Source: a virus
Length of the DNA stretch: 34,446 bases
Direction: 5' to 3' (one strand)
Virus record (IMG/VR): IMGVR_UViG_3300029915_000091
Location: 1 to 34,446 of that record
A program made the position numbers and the translations under genes. Under the pieces are notes generated by a model. It was not told the DNA's origin. It searched no databases and was given only the letters and a program-made list of their open reading frames with translations. This document shows, one piece after another, positions 1,216-17,509 of this stretch (the stretch's first letter is position 1; each line of letters starts with the position of its first letter).

Positions 1216-1556
1216 GCCAGCCTTCACCGCAGGAACAGGAAGTAGAACGGGCACGGGCGTGGTATTTGCCGTGGTACAGACGAACGTATCCGAATAGCAA
1301 AGTCCCCGATGATTTCATTCTGGATAGAGTTAAAACTGACGATGAGTGCTTGTTTACTTACGCCGCCGACTACCACGCCCAAGCCAGCGCAGACATTGCG
1401 GAAAAGATTGTTGACGCTGCTGGTCGATTCTGTGACTCAGAGCCACTGACCATCGACCTTGAAGGATGCACGCATTGCCAAGCTGGAGGAGGCGTGAAAA
1501 AGTTTCTTGACAAATACCTTGAAGTCCGGTATTATAGTAGTTGTAGGGCAACCTAA
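1212..1556 (+). CDS. hypothetical protein whose 3' end runs through a promoter
   Basis: A 114-residue product beginning MSQPSPQEQEVERARAWYLP, with an AGGAGGAAG ribosome site and ATGA overlap with the preceding gene. The body (DDFILDRVKTDDECLFTYAAD; EGCTHCQAGG) looks like a genuine small phage protein. The last ~20 codons are encoded by a TTGACA-N17-TATTAT promoter copy that recurs 188 bp downstream, so the original C-terminus may have been replaced or extended by a promoter-carrying duplication. Function unknown. Confidence 0.6.
   Translation: MSQPSPQEQEVERARAWYLPWYRRTYPNSKVPDDFILDRVKTDDECLFTYAADYHAQASADIAEKIVDAAGRFCDSEPLTIDLEGCTHCQAGGGVKKFLDKYLEVRYYSSCRAT
1507..1535 (+). promoter_or_regulatory. 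sigma70-type promoter P1
   Basis: TTGACA (1507-1512), 17 bases, TATTAT (1530-1535): a near-consensus promoter overlapping the end of the preceding gene. About 29 bases are almost identical to the promoter at 1695-1723. Confidence 0.75.
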
Positions 1557-1694: not shown

Positions 1695-1723
1695 TTGACA
1701 AATACCTGAAGTCCCGGTATTGT
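1695..1723 (+). promoter_or_regulatory. sigma70-type promoter P2
   Basis: TTGACA (1695-1700), 17 bases, TATTGT (1718-1723). It is a near-copy of P1, including flanking AAAGTTTC upstream and AATACCT in the spacer. It would transcribe the repeat region and the operon from 1961. Confidence 0.75.
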
Positions 1724-1921: not shown

Positions 1922-1960
1922 TCTATTAGCCTTCCACCTAATTTAACTTAGGAGCTAGAA

Positions 1961-2317
1961 ATGACGTAGAAGAACCCTTACATTTATGTGTTTGTTAGAC
2001 AAGATTTTCCCAAAGATAATCTTGCTCAACAAATCGTGCAGTCCAACCATGCCACCTTCGAGATGGCAAAACGCCTCACCAACTACGGTGAAATCCCTTC
2101 ACTGGTACTCATCGGTACTCCCGATAAGACCACCCTCGAAGCTATCGCAGAACGTCTCCAGCGTTACGGCATTGACTACGAGGCTTTCTACGAGTCCGAC
2201 AATGGTACGGGTCTCTCCGCCATTGCCACCTACCCCATCACCAAAAATAAGCAGCGTCACGCTCTCGGTATGTATCGTCTCTGGACGGCACAGGAGGCTT
2301 CCTATGCCACAGTCTAA
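1961..2317 (+). CDS. PTH2-like peptidyl-tRNA hydrolase with in-frame TAG at codon 3
   Basis: An AGGAG site six bases upstream points to the ATG at 1961. The frame reads ATG-ACG-TAG and then stays open for 115 more codons. The translation after TAG (KNPYIYVFVRQDFPKDN, QIVQSNHATFEMAKR, IPSLVLIGTPDKTTLEAIAE, then a turn and IATYPI) follows the PTH2 fold: first strand ending VRxDx, a helix with Q...HA, a strand, helix and closing strand. PTH2 enzymes release peptides from peptidyl-tRNA. Full-length product would need UAG readthrough, which the CTA-anticodon tRNAs at 4740 and 4827 could give. The alternative is initiation at GTG 1988, which trims the first strand and has no clear ribosome site. 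The family call is from pattern alone. Confidence 0.6.
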
Positions 2318-3040: not shown

Positions 3041-3510
3041 ACACCACACCGACACCCGGCATTGAACTTTTGATTCGCACCGACGCACTCCGCAAGATTC
3101 TTAACGACGACCCGGACACCCGTCTCAAGCTTCAGAGCATGGCGTGTGAGAAGATTGCCGAGGAGCTTAAACGCAAGGCCATTTCTCAGTTTGAGCCGCA
3201 GATACAGAGCATCATCAACAAGGCGATTGCTGACTGCAACATGACGCTCGCCAGCAAGTACAAGTTCCCGGCAGAAGCCAAGGCCATTATCGAGGAGCTG
3301 GCGAAGGAGAACGTGCAGACCTACTTCAAAGCGGAAATCAAACGCTGGGAAGCTACCATCAACGAGTTCTTCGCCGCCAAGCAAGCTGAGGCCAACGCAC
3401 AGACTGAGGCCAAAGTCATGGAGACTATCGAGAAGATGCGTCCCTTGATTCGCCAACAGGCTCGTGAGGAGTTCATCGCCACGCTTGAAGCCGTGCAGGG
3501 GGCAAAATGA
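3037..3510 (+). CDS. helical, coiled-coil-rich hypothetical protein
   Basis: The 157-residue product (MNTTPTPGIELLIRTDALR...) is almost wholly predicted helix, with a heptad-like charged stretch from about residue 85 to the end (IIEELAKENVQTYFKAEIKR; KQAEANAQTEAKVMETIEK). It is coupled to both neighbours: ATGA with the gene before it, and the ATGACGTAG start of the next gene sits on its stop. No family recognised; it could be a scaffold or assembly protein. Confidence 0.6.
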   Translation: MNTTPTPGIELLIRTDALRKILNDDPDTRLKLQSMACEKIAEELKRKAISQFEPQIQSIINKAIADCNMTLASKYKFPAEAKAIIEELAKENVQTYFKAEIKRWEATINEFFAAKQAEANAQTEAKVMETIEKMRPLIRQQAREEFIATLEAVQGAK

Positions 3511-3686
3511 CGTAGGTGGAAGAGAACCTCAAGCGGCTGGCCGAAGCGTTAATCAGTAGGGCATTTGTCTCCCACCGGGAGTATGAGGAATGCCGCTATT
3601 GTCGGGATACACAGAACGGGATGCAGGACATTGAGCATGATAGTGAATGCCCGGTACTCCTAGCCCAGGAGATACTCAGGGAATAA
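3507..3686 (+). CDS. small CxxC protein with in-frame TAG at codon 3
   Basis: The frame starts ATG-ACG-TAG, exactly as the PTH2-like gene does, and then continues open for 56 codons to TAA at 3684-3686. The ATG overlaps the preceding stop (ATGA) and follows CAGGGGG. The peptide after TAG (VEENLKRLAEALISRAF, then ECRYCRDTQ and IEHDSECP) has a convincing C-x2-C...H...C zinc arrangement and an amphipathic N-terminal helix, so it looks truly coding. Expression could use UAG readthrough or a GTG directly after the TAG (3516). Last gene of the operon. Confidence 0.6.
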
Positions 3687-4739: not shown

Positions 4740-4815
4740 GCGCCCGTGTACGTAGCGATTAACGTAGCGGTCTCTAAAACCGAACACGAGAGTTTGAATC
4801 TCTCCGGGCGCACCA
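4740..4815 (+). tRNA. putative amber-suppressor tRNA (anticodon CTA), first of two
   Basis: The acceptor stem GCGCCCG/CGGGCGC is perfect, followed by encoded ACCA; the T arm is GAGAG-TTTGAAT-CTCTC. The anticodon arm GCGGT-CTCTAAA-ACCGA has four good pairs and a G-A at the base; the loop CTCTAAA has T33, CTA at 34-36 (4774-4776) and A37, the same loop as the classical tyrosine amber suppressor. The D arm TACG/CGTA is unusual (no GG pair in the loop, no base 26). It is class I with discriminator A. The charged amino acid cannot be told. Confidence 0.65.
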
Positions 4816-4826
4816 ACCTTAATAAT

Positions 4827-4901
4827 GCCCCCGTAGCTCAGTGGCAGAGCCAGCACTTCTAAATTGCTAGGTCGTGGGTCCGATTCCCACCGGGGGTTCC
4901 A
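4827..4901 (+). tRNA. putative amber-suppressor tRNA (anticodon CTA), second of two
   Basis: It fits standard tRNA geometry: acceptor GCCCCCG/CGGGGGT, D arm GCTC-AGTGGCA-GAGC, variable loop AGGTC, T arm GTGGG-TCCGATT-CCCAC, encoded CCA. Anticodon arm AGCAC-TTCTAAA-TTGCT has four pairs and a C-T mismatch next to the loop; T33 is present and bases 34-36 are CTA (4859-4861). Moving the loop one base to read TCT (Arg) destroys the stem, so CTA is preferred. Lies 11 bases after the first suppressor. Confidence 0.65.
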
Positions 4902-6981: not shown

Positions 6982-7070
6982 GCTGACGTGGCACAGCGGC
7001 GACTGCACCTGTTTCGTAATCAGGCTGGTTATCTAACCACACGGGAGTTCGAGTCTCCCCGTCAGCTCCA
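6982..7070 (+). tRNA. tRNA with CGT anticodon and long variable arm (atypical)
   Basis: Acceptor GCTGACG/CGTCAGC, T arm GGGAG-TTCGAGT-CTCCC, encoded CCA. The anticodon arm CCTGT-TTCGTAA-TCAGG has four pairs and a T-T mismatch, and CGT at 7015-7017 (Thr, codon ACG). The variable region is 18 bases and can form TGGTT/AACCA, as in class II tRNAs (Leu, Ser, Tyr), which do not use this anticodon. So identity is uncertain. Confidence 0.65.
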
Positions 7071-7117
7071 AGTTCTACTTGTTGAGGCTAAATTCAGTAT
7101 TAACCATGGAGGTATCC

Positions 7118-7402
7118 ATGGCTAAGAAGAAAGTAAAGTTGTGCTACCACTGCAAGTGTAACCACAAGCGGTTTAAAGAGGGTGGAGTTTTCTACTCCTA
7201 TAAAGAGAGCAACGGACTGGATTAGCCCCCTGCCGCTATTGACAAGTTTCGCAAGGACACCACGGCAAAGGTGAAGTCCATCATCAAGAACCAGCAGACC
7301 ATTCTGGCTATTTTGAAGGACAAGGTCGATATCATCAAGAAGGCCACGGAGCCTCAGGATATCGAAAGAGCACTGGAAAGTGCCAATTACTATAGAAGGT
7401 AG
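7118..7402 (+). CDS. small CxxC protein with an internal in-frame TAG
   Basis: ATG 7118 follows GGAGG by six bases. The frame encodes 35 residues (MAKKKVKLCYHCKCNHKRF, then GGVFYSYKESNGLD), meets TAG at 7223-7225 and continues for 58 good codons (PPAAIDKFRKDTTAKVKSII, ILAILKDKVDIIKKATEP) to TAG at 7400. There is no start codon just after the internal TAG, so the second half can be made only by readthrough. Codon usage looks coding on both sides. The N-terminal half has a CxxC/CxC zinc site and the second half looks like an amphipathic helix pair. Function unknown. Confidence 0.6.
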
Positions 7403-7470
7403 CGGGTACTCGCCGGATGCCCATGGGGTTGCTGGCGGAGATAGACGGCACTCAAGAAGGTTTAGAATTT

Positions 7471-7544
7471 GCACCGTTAATTCAATGCTAGAACGCTTCT
7501 TTGGTAAAGAAGGTACGAGGGTCGGATTCCCTCACGGTGCTCCA
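7471..7544 (+). tRNA. tRNA-Thr (GGT)
   Basis: Acceptor GCACCGT/ACGGTGC, anticodon arm CTTCT-TTGGTAA-AGAAG with GGT at 7503-7505, T arm GAGGG-TCGGATT-CCCTC, encoded CCA. The D stem (ATTC/GAAC) has one mismatch. Confidence 0.8.
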
Positions 7545-7549
7545 AAATC

Positions 7550-7626
7550 GCTGGGTTAGCTCAGTTGGTAGAGCATCCGCCTTGTAAGCGGAAGGTTCAT
7601 CGGTTCGAGGCCGATACCCAGCTCCA
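7550..7626 (+). tRNA. tRNA-Thr (TGT)
   Basis: Acceptor GCTGGGT/ACCCAGC, D arm GCTC-AGTTGGTA-GAGC, anticodon arm TCCGC-CTTGTAA-GCGGA with TGT at 7583-7585, T arm ATCGG-TTCGAGG-CCGAT, encoded CCA. Fully regular; five bases after the previous tRNA. Confidence 0.92.
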
Positions 7627-15036: not shown

Positions 15037-16089
15037 ATGATTAAGCCTGATATCGGTATCGTTGTCGGACGGTTCCAAGTCCACGAACTACACGAGGGAC
15101 ATCTGGAACTCTTCCGCATCGTCAAGAGCCGTCACAACCGGGTAGCTGTGTTCTTGGGCTGCACCAAGACGGGGCCGAATCGGAAGAATCCTTTGGACTA
15201 TGAAACCCGCGAGAAGATGATTCATGATGACTTCCCCGATTTCACTGTCCATGCCTTACAGGACAAGAAGACCGACGAGGAGTGGAGCCGGGAGCTGGAC
15301 GCCCGCATTGACGACATCATTGGCGGCGGACCCGCTTCGGTAACCTTGTACGGTTCACGGGACAGCTTCGCCCCACACTACCACGGCAAGCACAAAGTCA
15401 AGGAACTCGACATCGAGGTTCCCCCCTCCCTCAACGGTACTGACATCCGCGCCCGCTTGACCAGCCAGATTAAAAAGTCGGCTGACTTCCGGGCGGGAAA
15501 CATCTACAACGCTGGCCTTGGGTATCCTCACTGCATCCCCACCGTGGATGTGGCCATTCATCACGACAAGCACATTCTCGTTGGACGCAAACCGGGCGAA
15601 CCCGGCTGGCGGTTTATCGGCGGACACGCTGAGGTCACAACTGACTCCTACGAGGAGGACGCCAAGAAGGAGGCCATGGAAGAGAGTGGTCTGCCCATCT
15701 CAAACGTCACATACATCGGCTCCAAGCGGATTGATGACTGGCGTCATCGTGGTACCGAGAACGGCATCAAGACGGCTTTCTTCCTCGCTGAGTCGATGAC
15801 CTTCGGCGGTACTGGAGCGGATGACATTGAAGAGGTTCACTGGCTCCCACTCGATGAGATGAAGCCGGAAGATTTTGAACCGGAGCATCAGCCGCTGGTG
15901 GTGATGTTGACTACCTACCTCATCAACGCGACGAAGCGGGAGGAGGCATACACCGGAGTTGACAAGAAGCTTAGATTGATGTTCCGCAAGTTGGGTACAG
16001 AGGGCAATTTGACGGGCAAGGAGCTTGATGCATTCATTGAATCAGGCGTAAAGAAGTTTTGCCAAAGCGCATTCGAAAGGAGAGGATAA
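15037..16089 (+). CDS. nadM: bifunctional NMN adenylyltransferase / Nudix hydrolase (NadM-Nudix)
   Basis: The 350-residue product has two domains. Residues 1-~160: a nucleotidyltransferase with GRFQVHELHEGH (11-22; the GRFQxxHxGH signature with a short insert) and NGTDIRAR (133-140; equivalent to ISSTxxR), which joins NMN and ATP to NAD+. Residues ~165-300: a Nudix domain with box GGHAEV...DAKKEAMEESGL (195-219), one residue longer than the usual spacing, expected to hydrolyse ADP-ribose or a related nucleotide. Its gene is four bases before NAMPT, so the two form an NAD+ salvage operon. Confidence 0.9.
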   Translation: MIKPDIGIVVGRFQVHELHEGHLELFRIVKSRHNRVAVFLGCTKTGPNRKNPLDYETREKMIHDDFPDFTVHALQDKKTDEEWSRELDARIDDIIGGGPASVTLYGSRDSFAPHYHGKHKVKELDIEVPPSLNGTDIRARLTSQIKKSADFRAGNIYNAGLGYPHCIPTVDVAIHHDKHILVGRKPGEPGWRFIGGHAEVTTDSYEEDAKKEAMEESGLPISNVTYIGSKRIDDWRHRGTENGIKTAFFLAESMTFGGTGADDIEEVHWLPLDEMKPEDFEPEHQPLVVMLTTYLINATKREEAYTGVDKKLRLMFRKLGTEGNLTGKELDAFIESGVKKFCQSAFERRG

Positions 16090-16093
16090 CATC

Positions 16094-17509
16094 ATGGCAC
16101 TATCGAAAATGTCCACAACCATTGACGGCAAGAGTGACCTTTACAAATACTCCCACTGGAGAGGCTACCCAAAAGGTACTCGTTTCGTTGAATCCTACCT
16201 CGAATTCCGTGTTGGTGCCAAGTATCGGCAGGTTGTTCCCTACGGCCTCCAGTACATCATGGAGGAATACCTCGCTGGGGTTCGCATAACCAAAGACGAG
16301 GTTCTTCGCCGCAATAAGAAGGTCACAGAGATGATGGGCGAAGGCGTATTCAACTTGAAGGGTTGGTTGGAAATGCTTGAAGCCCATGACGGTCGTATCC
16401 CGATTCGCATCAAGGCGATTCCTGAGGGCACCGTGATGGACACTTCAAACGCCATGGTCGTGGTTGAGAACACAGACCCGCGTTTTCCTTGGATTACAAA
16501 TTTCTGTGAAACCTCCATCATGAAACTGTGGTACCCATCCACTGTTTCCAGTGGGCAGTTTGCAAGGCGGCAGATGTTCCTCGCTTTTCTGCACAAGACC
16601 GGCGACCCCAATCTCATCGACTACAAGTGGGTGGACTTTGGCTATCGCGGGGTTTCTTCAGAGGAGTCTGCGGCTCTGGGTGGCTCGGCTCACTTGCTTA
16701 GCTTCCGTTCGAGTGACACGATGATTTCTGATGATTTCGTGGAAGCTTATTACGGCTCTGACCACGTGCAGATGGGTAGCGTCCCAGCCTCGGAGCACTC
16801 CACTATGACCACGTGGGGTAAGGACAACGAAGCTGGTGCCGTTGGCAACATGCTAACCTCATTCCCCAAGGGCATTGTCTCCATCGTTGGTGACTCATAC
16901 GACTATGAAAACTTCGTCCGCAATATCATCGGTGGCAAGTACCGCGATGAAATCCTACGCCGCGAAGGTGTGGTCGTGGTTCGTCCCGACTCCGGCGACC
17001 CCGCCTCAATGGTTCTCCGCTCCTGCCAGTGGCTGGATGAGAACTTTGGCTCTGAGGCCAATGACAAGGGTTACAAGATTCTCAACAAGCACGTCCGCGT
17101 AATTCAGGGGGATGGCATCAATTATGACTCTGCATACGAGATTCTTGCTACGCTGGAACGTCAGGGATGGTCGGCTGACAACATCACATTGGGGGAAGGC
17201 GGCGGTGCTTTACAAGCCATAAACAGGGACACGGAGCGTGCGGCTCTCAAGGCTTGCGCGGTGGATATCGACGGTGTGTGGCATGATGTGTACAAAGACC
17301 CGAAGACAGACCCCGGCAAGGCGTCGAAGGCTGGTCACCTTGCGGTTGTCTGTGTCAATGGCGTCTACCGCACAATCCCCAAGCAGGATGGTATCATCTA
17401 CACGGAAGACCGCTTGGTTCCAGTGTTCGAGAATGGAAAGATTCTGAAGCGTTATAGCTTCGATGACATTCGCGCTCGTGTTGTGGCTAACGACATCACA
17501 GAGAGTTAA
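16094..17509 (+). CDS. nadV: nicotinamide phosphoribosyltransferase (NAMPT/NadV)
   Basis: The 471-residue product carries the NAMPT signatures: DLYKYSHWRGYP (15-26), WVDFGYRGVSSEESAALGGS, SSDT with Asp 208, SVPASEHSTMTTWG with catalytic His 235, GDSYD, VRPDSGDP with Arg 297 and Asp 299, and GEGGGALQAINRDT. The enzyme makes NMN from nicotinamide and PRPP; the neighbouring NadM then makes NAD+. Length matches the family (~470-490). Known phage pairs of this type rebuild NAD+ destroyed by defence systems. No truncation or missing residue seen. Confidence 0.95.
   Translation: MALSKMSTTIDGKSDLYKYSHWRGYPKGTRFVESYLEFRVGAKYRQVVPYGLQYIMEEYLAGVRITKDEVLRRNKKVTEMMGEGVFNLKGWLEMLEAHDGRIPIRIKAIPEGTVMDTSNAMVVVENTDPRFPWITNFCETSIMKLWYPSTVSSGQFARRQMFLAFLHKTGDPNLIDYKWVDFGYRGVSSEESAALGGSAHLLSFRSSDTMISDDFVEAYYGSDHVQMGSVPASEHSTMTTWGKDNEAGAVGNMLTSFPKGIVSIVGDSYDYENFVRNIIGGKYRDEILRREGVVVVRPDSGDPASMVLRSCQWLDENFGSEANDKGYKILNKHVRVIQGDGINYDSAYEILATLERQGWSADNITLGEGGGALQAINRDTERAALKACAVDIDGVWHDVYKDPKTDPGKASKAGHLAVVCVNGVYRTIPKQDGIIYTEDRLVPVFENGKILKRYSFDDIRARVVANDITES

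Follow-up and report, generated by a model that had tools for sequence, protein, structure and literature searches.

A probable suppressor-tRNA-dependent gate at an early in-frame TAG of PTH2-like genes in jumbo phages

The window, by which we mean the whole stretch of DNA analysed (34,446 nucleotides), is a 34-kb IMG/VR virus record that encodes a tail-sheath-like protein, a helicase and enzymes of NAD salvage; an NAD-salvage pair of NMN adenylyltransferase/Nudix-like and nicotinamide phosphoribosyltransferase genes lies at 15037-17509. Six bases 3' of an AGGAG, positions 1961-1969 read ATG ACG TAG, and the same frame is then open until a TAA at 2317. The initial annotation had described this layout, and direct reading of the sequence bears it out. 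The features that concern us are as follows.

1507..1535, + strand, promoter-like site 5' of the PTH2-like gene, TTGACA-17-TATTAT (consensus scan, 11/12; a consensus match only)
1695..1723, + strand, second promoter-like site, TTGACA-17-TATTGT (consensus scan, 10/12; a consensus match only)
1950..1954, + strand, Shine-Dalgarno AGGAG (direct reading)
1961..2317, + strand, putatively gated PTH2-like gene, 118 aa if the UAG is read (sequence, homologues and model)
1967..1969, + strand, probable gating in-frame TAG, codon 3 of the PTH2-like gene (kept in homologues)
3507..3686, + strand, second gene opening ATG ACG TAG, for a small Cys-rich protein (second ATGACGTAG copy, homologues)
3513..3515, + strand, second putative gating TAG
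4740..4815, + strand, tRNA with anticodon CUA, loop CTCTAAA (Rfam RF00005, 50.6 bits, and a folded cloverleaf; missed by ARAGORN)
4827..4901, + strand, tRNA with anticodon CUA (ARAGORN; Rfam, 54.4 bits)

The window contains two copies of ATGACGTAG, where 0.16 would be expected. The second copy, at 3507-3515, likewise opens a gene, and the homologues of this gene in three other phages (L069, L070 and L105) also begin with Met-Thr-TAG; here, re-initiation at an ATG or GTG right after the TAG would be possible. Upstream of the gated gene, a leader element, GCAACGTATGGTGGTAGCGTTGGG, is repeated at 1808-1831 and 1899-1920. At 7118-7402 we observed a possible second read-through gene with an ATG GCT AAG ... 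start and an in-frame TAG at 7223 (codon 36); its frame is otherwise open and its terminal stop is another TAG (7400). No match to PADLOC defence families was obtained.

The PTH2-like character of the product, which the initial annotation had proposed, was supported when structure prediction was run and compared with PTH2. With 30 sequences, AlphaFold2 gave a model with a pLDDT of 77.7 (59 with 7 sequences) that matches PTH2 structures across nearly its whole length. The top 14 Foldseek matches of the model were all PTH2 (E of 3.6e-5), and VIA-align gave a Z of 11.9 for PTH2 and of 4.3 for the next unrelated match. Sixteen of 30 family members matched the PF01981 profile at E ≤0.1 (best 1.1e-4), and the window protein itself gave no match to this profile at the same limit. 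We regard the PTH2 fold of the predicted protein as confirmed by the structural matches of the model. Jumbo phages are already on record as carrying PTH2 peptidyl-tRNA hydrolases (PF01981; Iyer et al. 2021, PMC7824862). The phage protein shares with PF01981 PTH2 the fold, a length of about 115 aa and conserved R-x-D, H-A, D and T positions but differs in its very weak sequence similarity, in its apparent gating by an early stop and in lacking the GK loop with its lysine, the loop being deleted and the lysine not conserved in our alignments. The GK-loop lysine is essential in PTH2; with loop and lysine absent, peptidyl-tRNA hydrolase activity therefore cannot be assumed.

Searches of IMG/VR returned 8 loci with the window protein and 38 with the family alignment. 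The homology scan for in-frame stops used frame competition; a scan without competition was swamped by shadow frames. Nearly all of these loci have an in-frame TAG soon after an ATG. For the gate counts, each of 34 dereplicated homologues was followed 5' from the conserved FVRxD strand as far as the first in-frame stop. This stop was TAG in 33 of the 34 (a count that includes RaK2, whose TAG lies ahead of a normal ATG and is no gate), compared with a background of 26% TAG for ORFs of 100 codons or more from those loci. The nominal p for the excess is ~3e-16 for 31/33; because the homologues share ancestry, their counts are not independent and all p-values given here are nominal. The gating TAG typically lies 1 to 12 codons past an ATG, with leaders of 1, 2, 3, 4, 5, 8, 9, 12, 16 and 28 codons (range 1 to about 28), two being the commonest length (23/39). 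This preference also fits a simpler idea, that an early gate makes for the least waste. Openings seen include ATG ACC TAG, ATG CAC TAG, ATG CAT TAG, ATG CTC TAG, ATG TTG TAG, ATG TAG and ATG CGT AAG ... CTG TAG. The codons preceding the stop are not conserved, the 8-11 codons after it carry indels in the synonymous/non-synonymous comparison, and the gate is retained while leader length, flanking sequence and gene order differ.

The GTG at 1988, offered earlier as an alternative start, is residue 10 of the product and falls within strand 1 of the model (residues 7-13). A start there would break the fold because half of the first β-strand would be cut off. In 22 of the 34 homologues there is no ATG, GTG or TTG from the stop to the FVRxD motif, so that read-through could not be replaced by a normal start; both observations argue against GTG 1988.

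The base after the gating TAG was A in 25 genes, G in 20, C in 1 and T in 0 (purine in 45/46), whereas after the terminal TAG of ordinary ORFs in the same loci it was A in 39, G in 34, C in 46 and T in 33 (purine in 73/152; Fisher p of 3e-11, nominal for these related homologues). A purine after UAG reportedly favours amber suppression (Bossi; Miller and Albertini). The near-universal conservation of the TAG and its purine +4 context support the earlier proposal that this UAG must be read as sense. We also scanned whole genomes by coding potential for the pattern of a Shine-Dalgarno site, an ATG, up to 20 codons, a stop and then coding sequence. In GAP32 the scan gave two TAG cases and zero TAA or TGA cases, one of the two being the PTH2-like gene; the other (L128:11457) is an ATG-one codon-TAG in frame 5' of a gene with its own later ATG. 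A larger, function-unassigned gene in phages G003 and G007 (L031:2175, - strand; L048:11497, + strand) also has an in-frame TAG, at nearby but different positions in the two, with conserved sequence flanking each.

The two CUA tRNAs are among eight tRNAs that Rfam finds in the window. A phage CUA tRNA was found for 38 of the 42 TAG-gated records, of which 37 came from the main count and L093 was entered by Rfam and cloverleaf inspection. We counted against the gate the other four, all incomplete or partly scanned: G005, G009 and G010, which are fragments, and LR745206, of which only the tRNA-bearing parts were scanned. L104 carries TGA at the gate, and the sole tRNA found in its 68-kb record has the anticodon UCA; its code is otherwise standard, with TGA terminating 13 of 43 long ORFs. 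This swap of TGA and UCA is what the gate hypothesis would predict, albeit seen in one phage only, where the ribosome-binding site is weak. Together with the conservation and the purine context, co-occurrence and swap support the coupling to the phage CUA tRNAs that was first proposed. The CUA tRNAs are highly diverse, without a common acceptor type, and a nearest-relative search for the amino acid that they carry gave no consistent answer. Given this diversity, the identity of the inserted residue seems not to be conserved, and the lack of a common acceptor type argues for decoding as the probable role of these tRNAs rather than insertion of a special residue. A UCA tRNA has been reported for Atu_ph07 (PMC6102473), in which we detected no member of the PTH2-like family.

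The CUA tRNA gene lies close to the PTH2-like gene at many loci. It also sits just 3' of the gene in a divergent group (L260:8001-8294, L261:2508-2756, L262:8001-8243, L263:8001-8273 and L264:3239-3514) in which the PTH2-like gene starts at a normal ATG and is ungated, and we counted this group against the gate as well; the distance is about 0.6 kb in L264, and the group has a conserved overlapping gene 5' of the PTH2-like gene. Complete RaK2 has neither a gate nor a CUA tRNA, and its PTH2-like gene has an ordinary ATG. Other arrangements of tRNA genes were also seen. An ungated PTH2-like gene in LR745208 (L252:7222-7705) is followed by a tRNA with the ochre anticodon UUA, and in L006:4989-5654 and the matching L085 gene the PTH2-like frame meets no stop before it enters a tRNA gene whose anticodon loop is unusual (AGU by ARAGORN). 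The window has three threonine tRNAs at 6982-7626 (CGU, GGU and UGU, the GGU by Rfam and inspection only). A permuted tmRNA is present shortly 5' of the PTH2-like gene at L002:1256-1649, L006:3479-3891, L070:2220-2620 and in other relatives; none was found 5' of the PTH2-like gene in the window.

Many relatives have, beside the PTH2-like gene or not far from it, a gene for an HD-domain protein (phrog_14850, matched weakly by Pfam HD). A separate HD gene has its own early TAG in L100, L073, L081 and LR745206, and in GAP32, BF, CBB, Kaldavass and XbC2 the HD gene carries a TAG as codon 47, and the sequence is under purifying selection both before and after it (406 synonymous versus 245 non-synonymous differences after the TAG, summed over pairs). 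Xanthomonas phage XacN1 and Stenotrophomonas phage RAS14 have a single fused gene, HD then PTH2, that opens ATG AAG TAG, in XacN1 just 5' of the annotated ATG, and Tenacibaculum phage pT24 has the fusion in reverse order (PTH2-HD), opening ATG AAA TAG. The gate thus appears to accompany the module through rearrangement.

Among cultured phages, the early-TAG gene is present in Cronobacter GAP32, Serratia BF, Acinetobacter ME3, Salmonella Arash, Pectobacterium CBB, Erwinia Kaldavass and Xanthomonas XbC2. Public annotation omits the gene in Serratia phage BF and several Erwinia (SNUABM) phages and places its start 3' of the TAG in GAP32, CBB and Arash. Most cultured-phage records have a suppressor-type tRNA annotated within a few kb ("Sup", "Pyl" or "OTHER"); the Arash tRNA at that position is annotated as Phe and has the anticodon CUA according to ARAGORN. 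The gated unit is a module of PTH2-like and HD proteins rather than a single gene, and dozens of jumbo phages have it.

We propose that ribosomes would start at the ATG and reach the UAG within a few codons, where, unaided, RF1 would terminate and nothing useful would be made. A phage tRNA with the anticodon CUA, of which the window has two copies, would insert an amino acid at the UAG and so yield the PTH2-like protein. Comparative genomics leads us to infer these two steps strongly. The gate would be kept so that the PTH2-like protein, and often its HD partner, is expressed only insofar as suppressor tRNA is produced, processed and charged and can hold its own against RF1; the CUA tRNA would compete with RF1, and the output of the module would be proportional to the working suppressor tRNA. 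With these steps taken jointly, the TAG is very probably a suppressor-tRNA-dependent translational gate on the PTH2-like/HD module. More tentatively, the likely purpose of the module could be to relieve the infected cell of problems with peptidyl-tRNA or tRNA, among them those that amber suppression itself may cause when ribosomes run past real UAG stops, with output following suppression; this last step is weakened because the PTH2 catalytic lysine is absent. The gate has three candidate purposes: timing, feedback on suppression strength and rescue matched to the trouble that suppression causes. We lean toward the last because the CUA tRNA is near the PTH2-like gene even in the ungated group and because a permuted tmRNA is just upstream in many relatives.

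The feedback purpose would be a special form of the gate, an autoregulatory homeostat in which the product would cut down read-through of UAG, perhaps through hydrolysis of aminoacyl- or peptidyl-tRNA(CUA), and so exert negative feedback on suppression strength. In favour of such a circuit, the gated product has a tRNA-linked fold and is encoded beside a CUA tRNA gene even when ungated, and an early in-frame stop acting as sensor is the design of RF2, whose gene, prfB, is autoregulated by an early in-frame UGA through frameshifting. The action of the protein on tRNA(CUA) is conjectural, however, and gates also occur in small genes with other functions, as at 3507 in the window; we consider the homeostat possible but less likely than not. 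Equally, the gate might be a timing or private-code device that delays the gene until phage tRNAs accumulate or silences it outside infection, the product being incidental. An early stop would then simply be the least wasteful, and recoded phages have been proposed to switch codes in infection by means of suppressor tRNAs (PMC10879173). Yet the gate recurs on this one module, in separate genes, in fusions and with a swapped stop, so that the product seems to matter, and we consider a pure timing device likewise possible but less likely than not.

The initial annotation had envisaged a self-regulating switch built on a minigene like those of lambda bar, which consist of a start codon, one codon and a stop and are linked to peptidyl-tRNA hydrolase: the dipeptide would cause peptidyl-tRNA drop-off and the enzyme would clear the product. 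The gated gene resembles lambda bar in its start-codon-stop layout and its link to peptidyl-tRNA hydrolase, and two codons are indeed the commonest leader, but leader length varies between 1 and about 28 codons, the HD-gene gate of GAP32-like phages stands at codon 47 and the codons before the stop vary. Conservation extends to the stop and its tRNA and not to the length of the leader; the UAG gate and its link to the CUA tRNA therefore survive from that proposal, the drop-off-prone dipeptide does not, and a minigene switch is improbable. That TAG is a plain amino-acid codon in these phages is highly improbable: CUA tRNAs are present and TAG-recoded jumbo phages exist (PMC13037316), but TAG is the working stop of ordinary long genes in these genomes, frames of at least 500 codons in the window have zero TAG inside, and the coding-potential scan gives one or two genes rather than many. 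Genome-wide TAG recoding was set aside as a candidate on these grounds, and the use of TAG as sense throughout many genes and its disuse as a stop, which define code 15, were not found. An accidental ATG-xxx-TAG ahead of a real downstream start would agree with the database starts in GAP32, CBB and Arash and with GTG 1988 in the window. It is contradicted by the 33/34 count of TAG against background, by the homologues that have no start codon before the domain and by the damage to strand 1, it leaves the purine bias and the CUA tRNA link unexplained, and we judge it extremely improbable.

The suppressor-tRNA-dependent gate has partial parallels in known systems. Stop-codon-recoded phages (code 15, crAss-like and others; PMC9523058, PMC13037316) likewise use a phage CUA tRNA to decode UAG, but unlike code-15 phages the gated phages keep the standard code and would read UAG only close to the start of a single dedicated gene or a small number of them. 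As in RF2, an early in-frame stop would serve as a decoding sensor; RF2 uses a frameshift, whereas the gated gene would use in-frame read-through by a dedicated tRNA, with feedback hypothetical. Phage suppressor tRNAs, recoded phages and jumbo-phage PTH2 are already known. The gate itself is apparently undescribed in the literature that we searched (subscription papers and preprints fell outside the search).

Suppressor tRNAs have been reported in many jumbo phages without recoding, and the targets of the amber suppressor tRNAs of Summit (PMC9022506) and XacN1 (PMC5852040) were not identified. The gate offers a likely answer to what the suppressor tRNAs of standard-code jumbo phages target, and it names a concrete target in the cultured phages GAP32, CBB, BF, ME3, Arash, XacN1, RAS14 and pT24. 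It would also explain why gene callers miss or truncate the PTH2-like gene. We lean modestly toward the broader view that this is a widespread form of control in standard-code jumbo phages, in which an amber (rarely opal) suppressor tRNA would be the key and an early stop would lock a PTH2-like/HD tRNA-quality module, coupling ribosome or tRNA rescue to the extent of stop-codon suppression. The style of control that this suggests is one in which a stop codon may hold a single module shut until a matching tRNA opens it.
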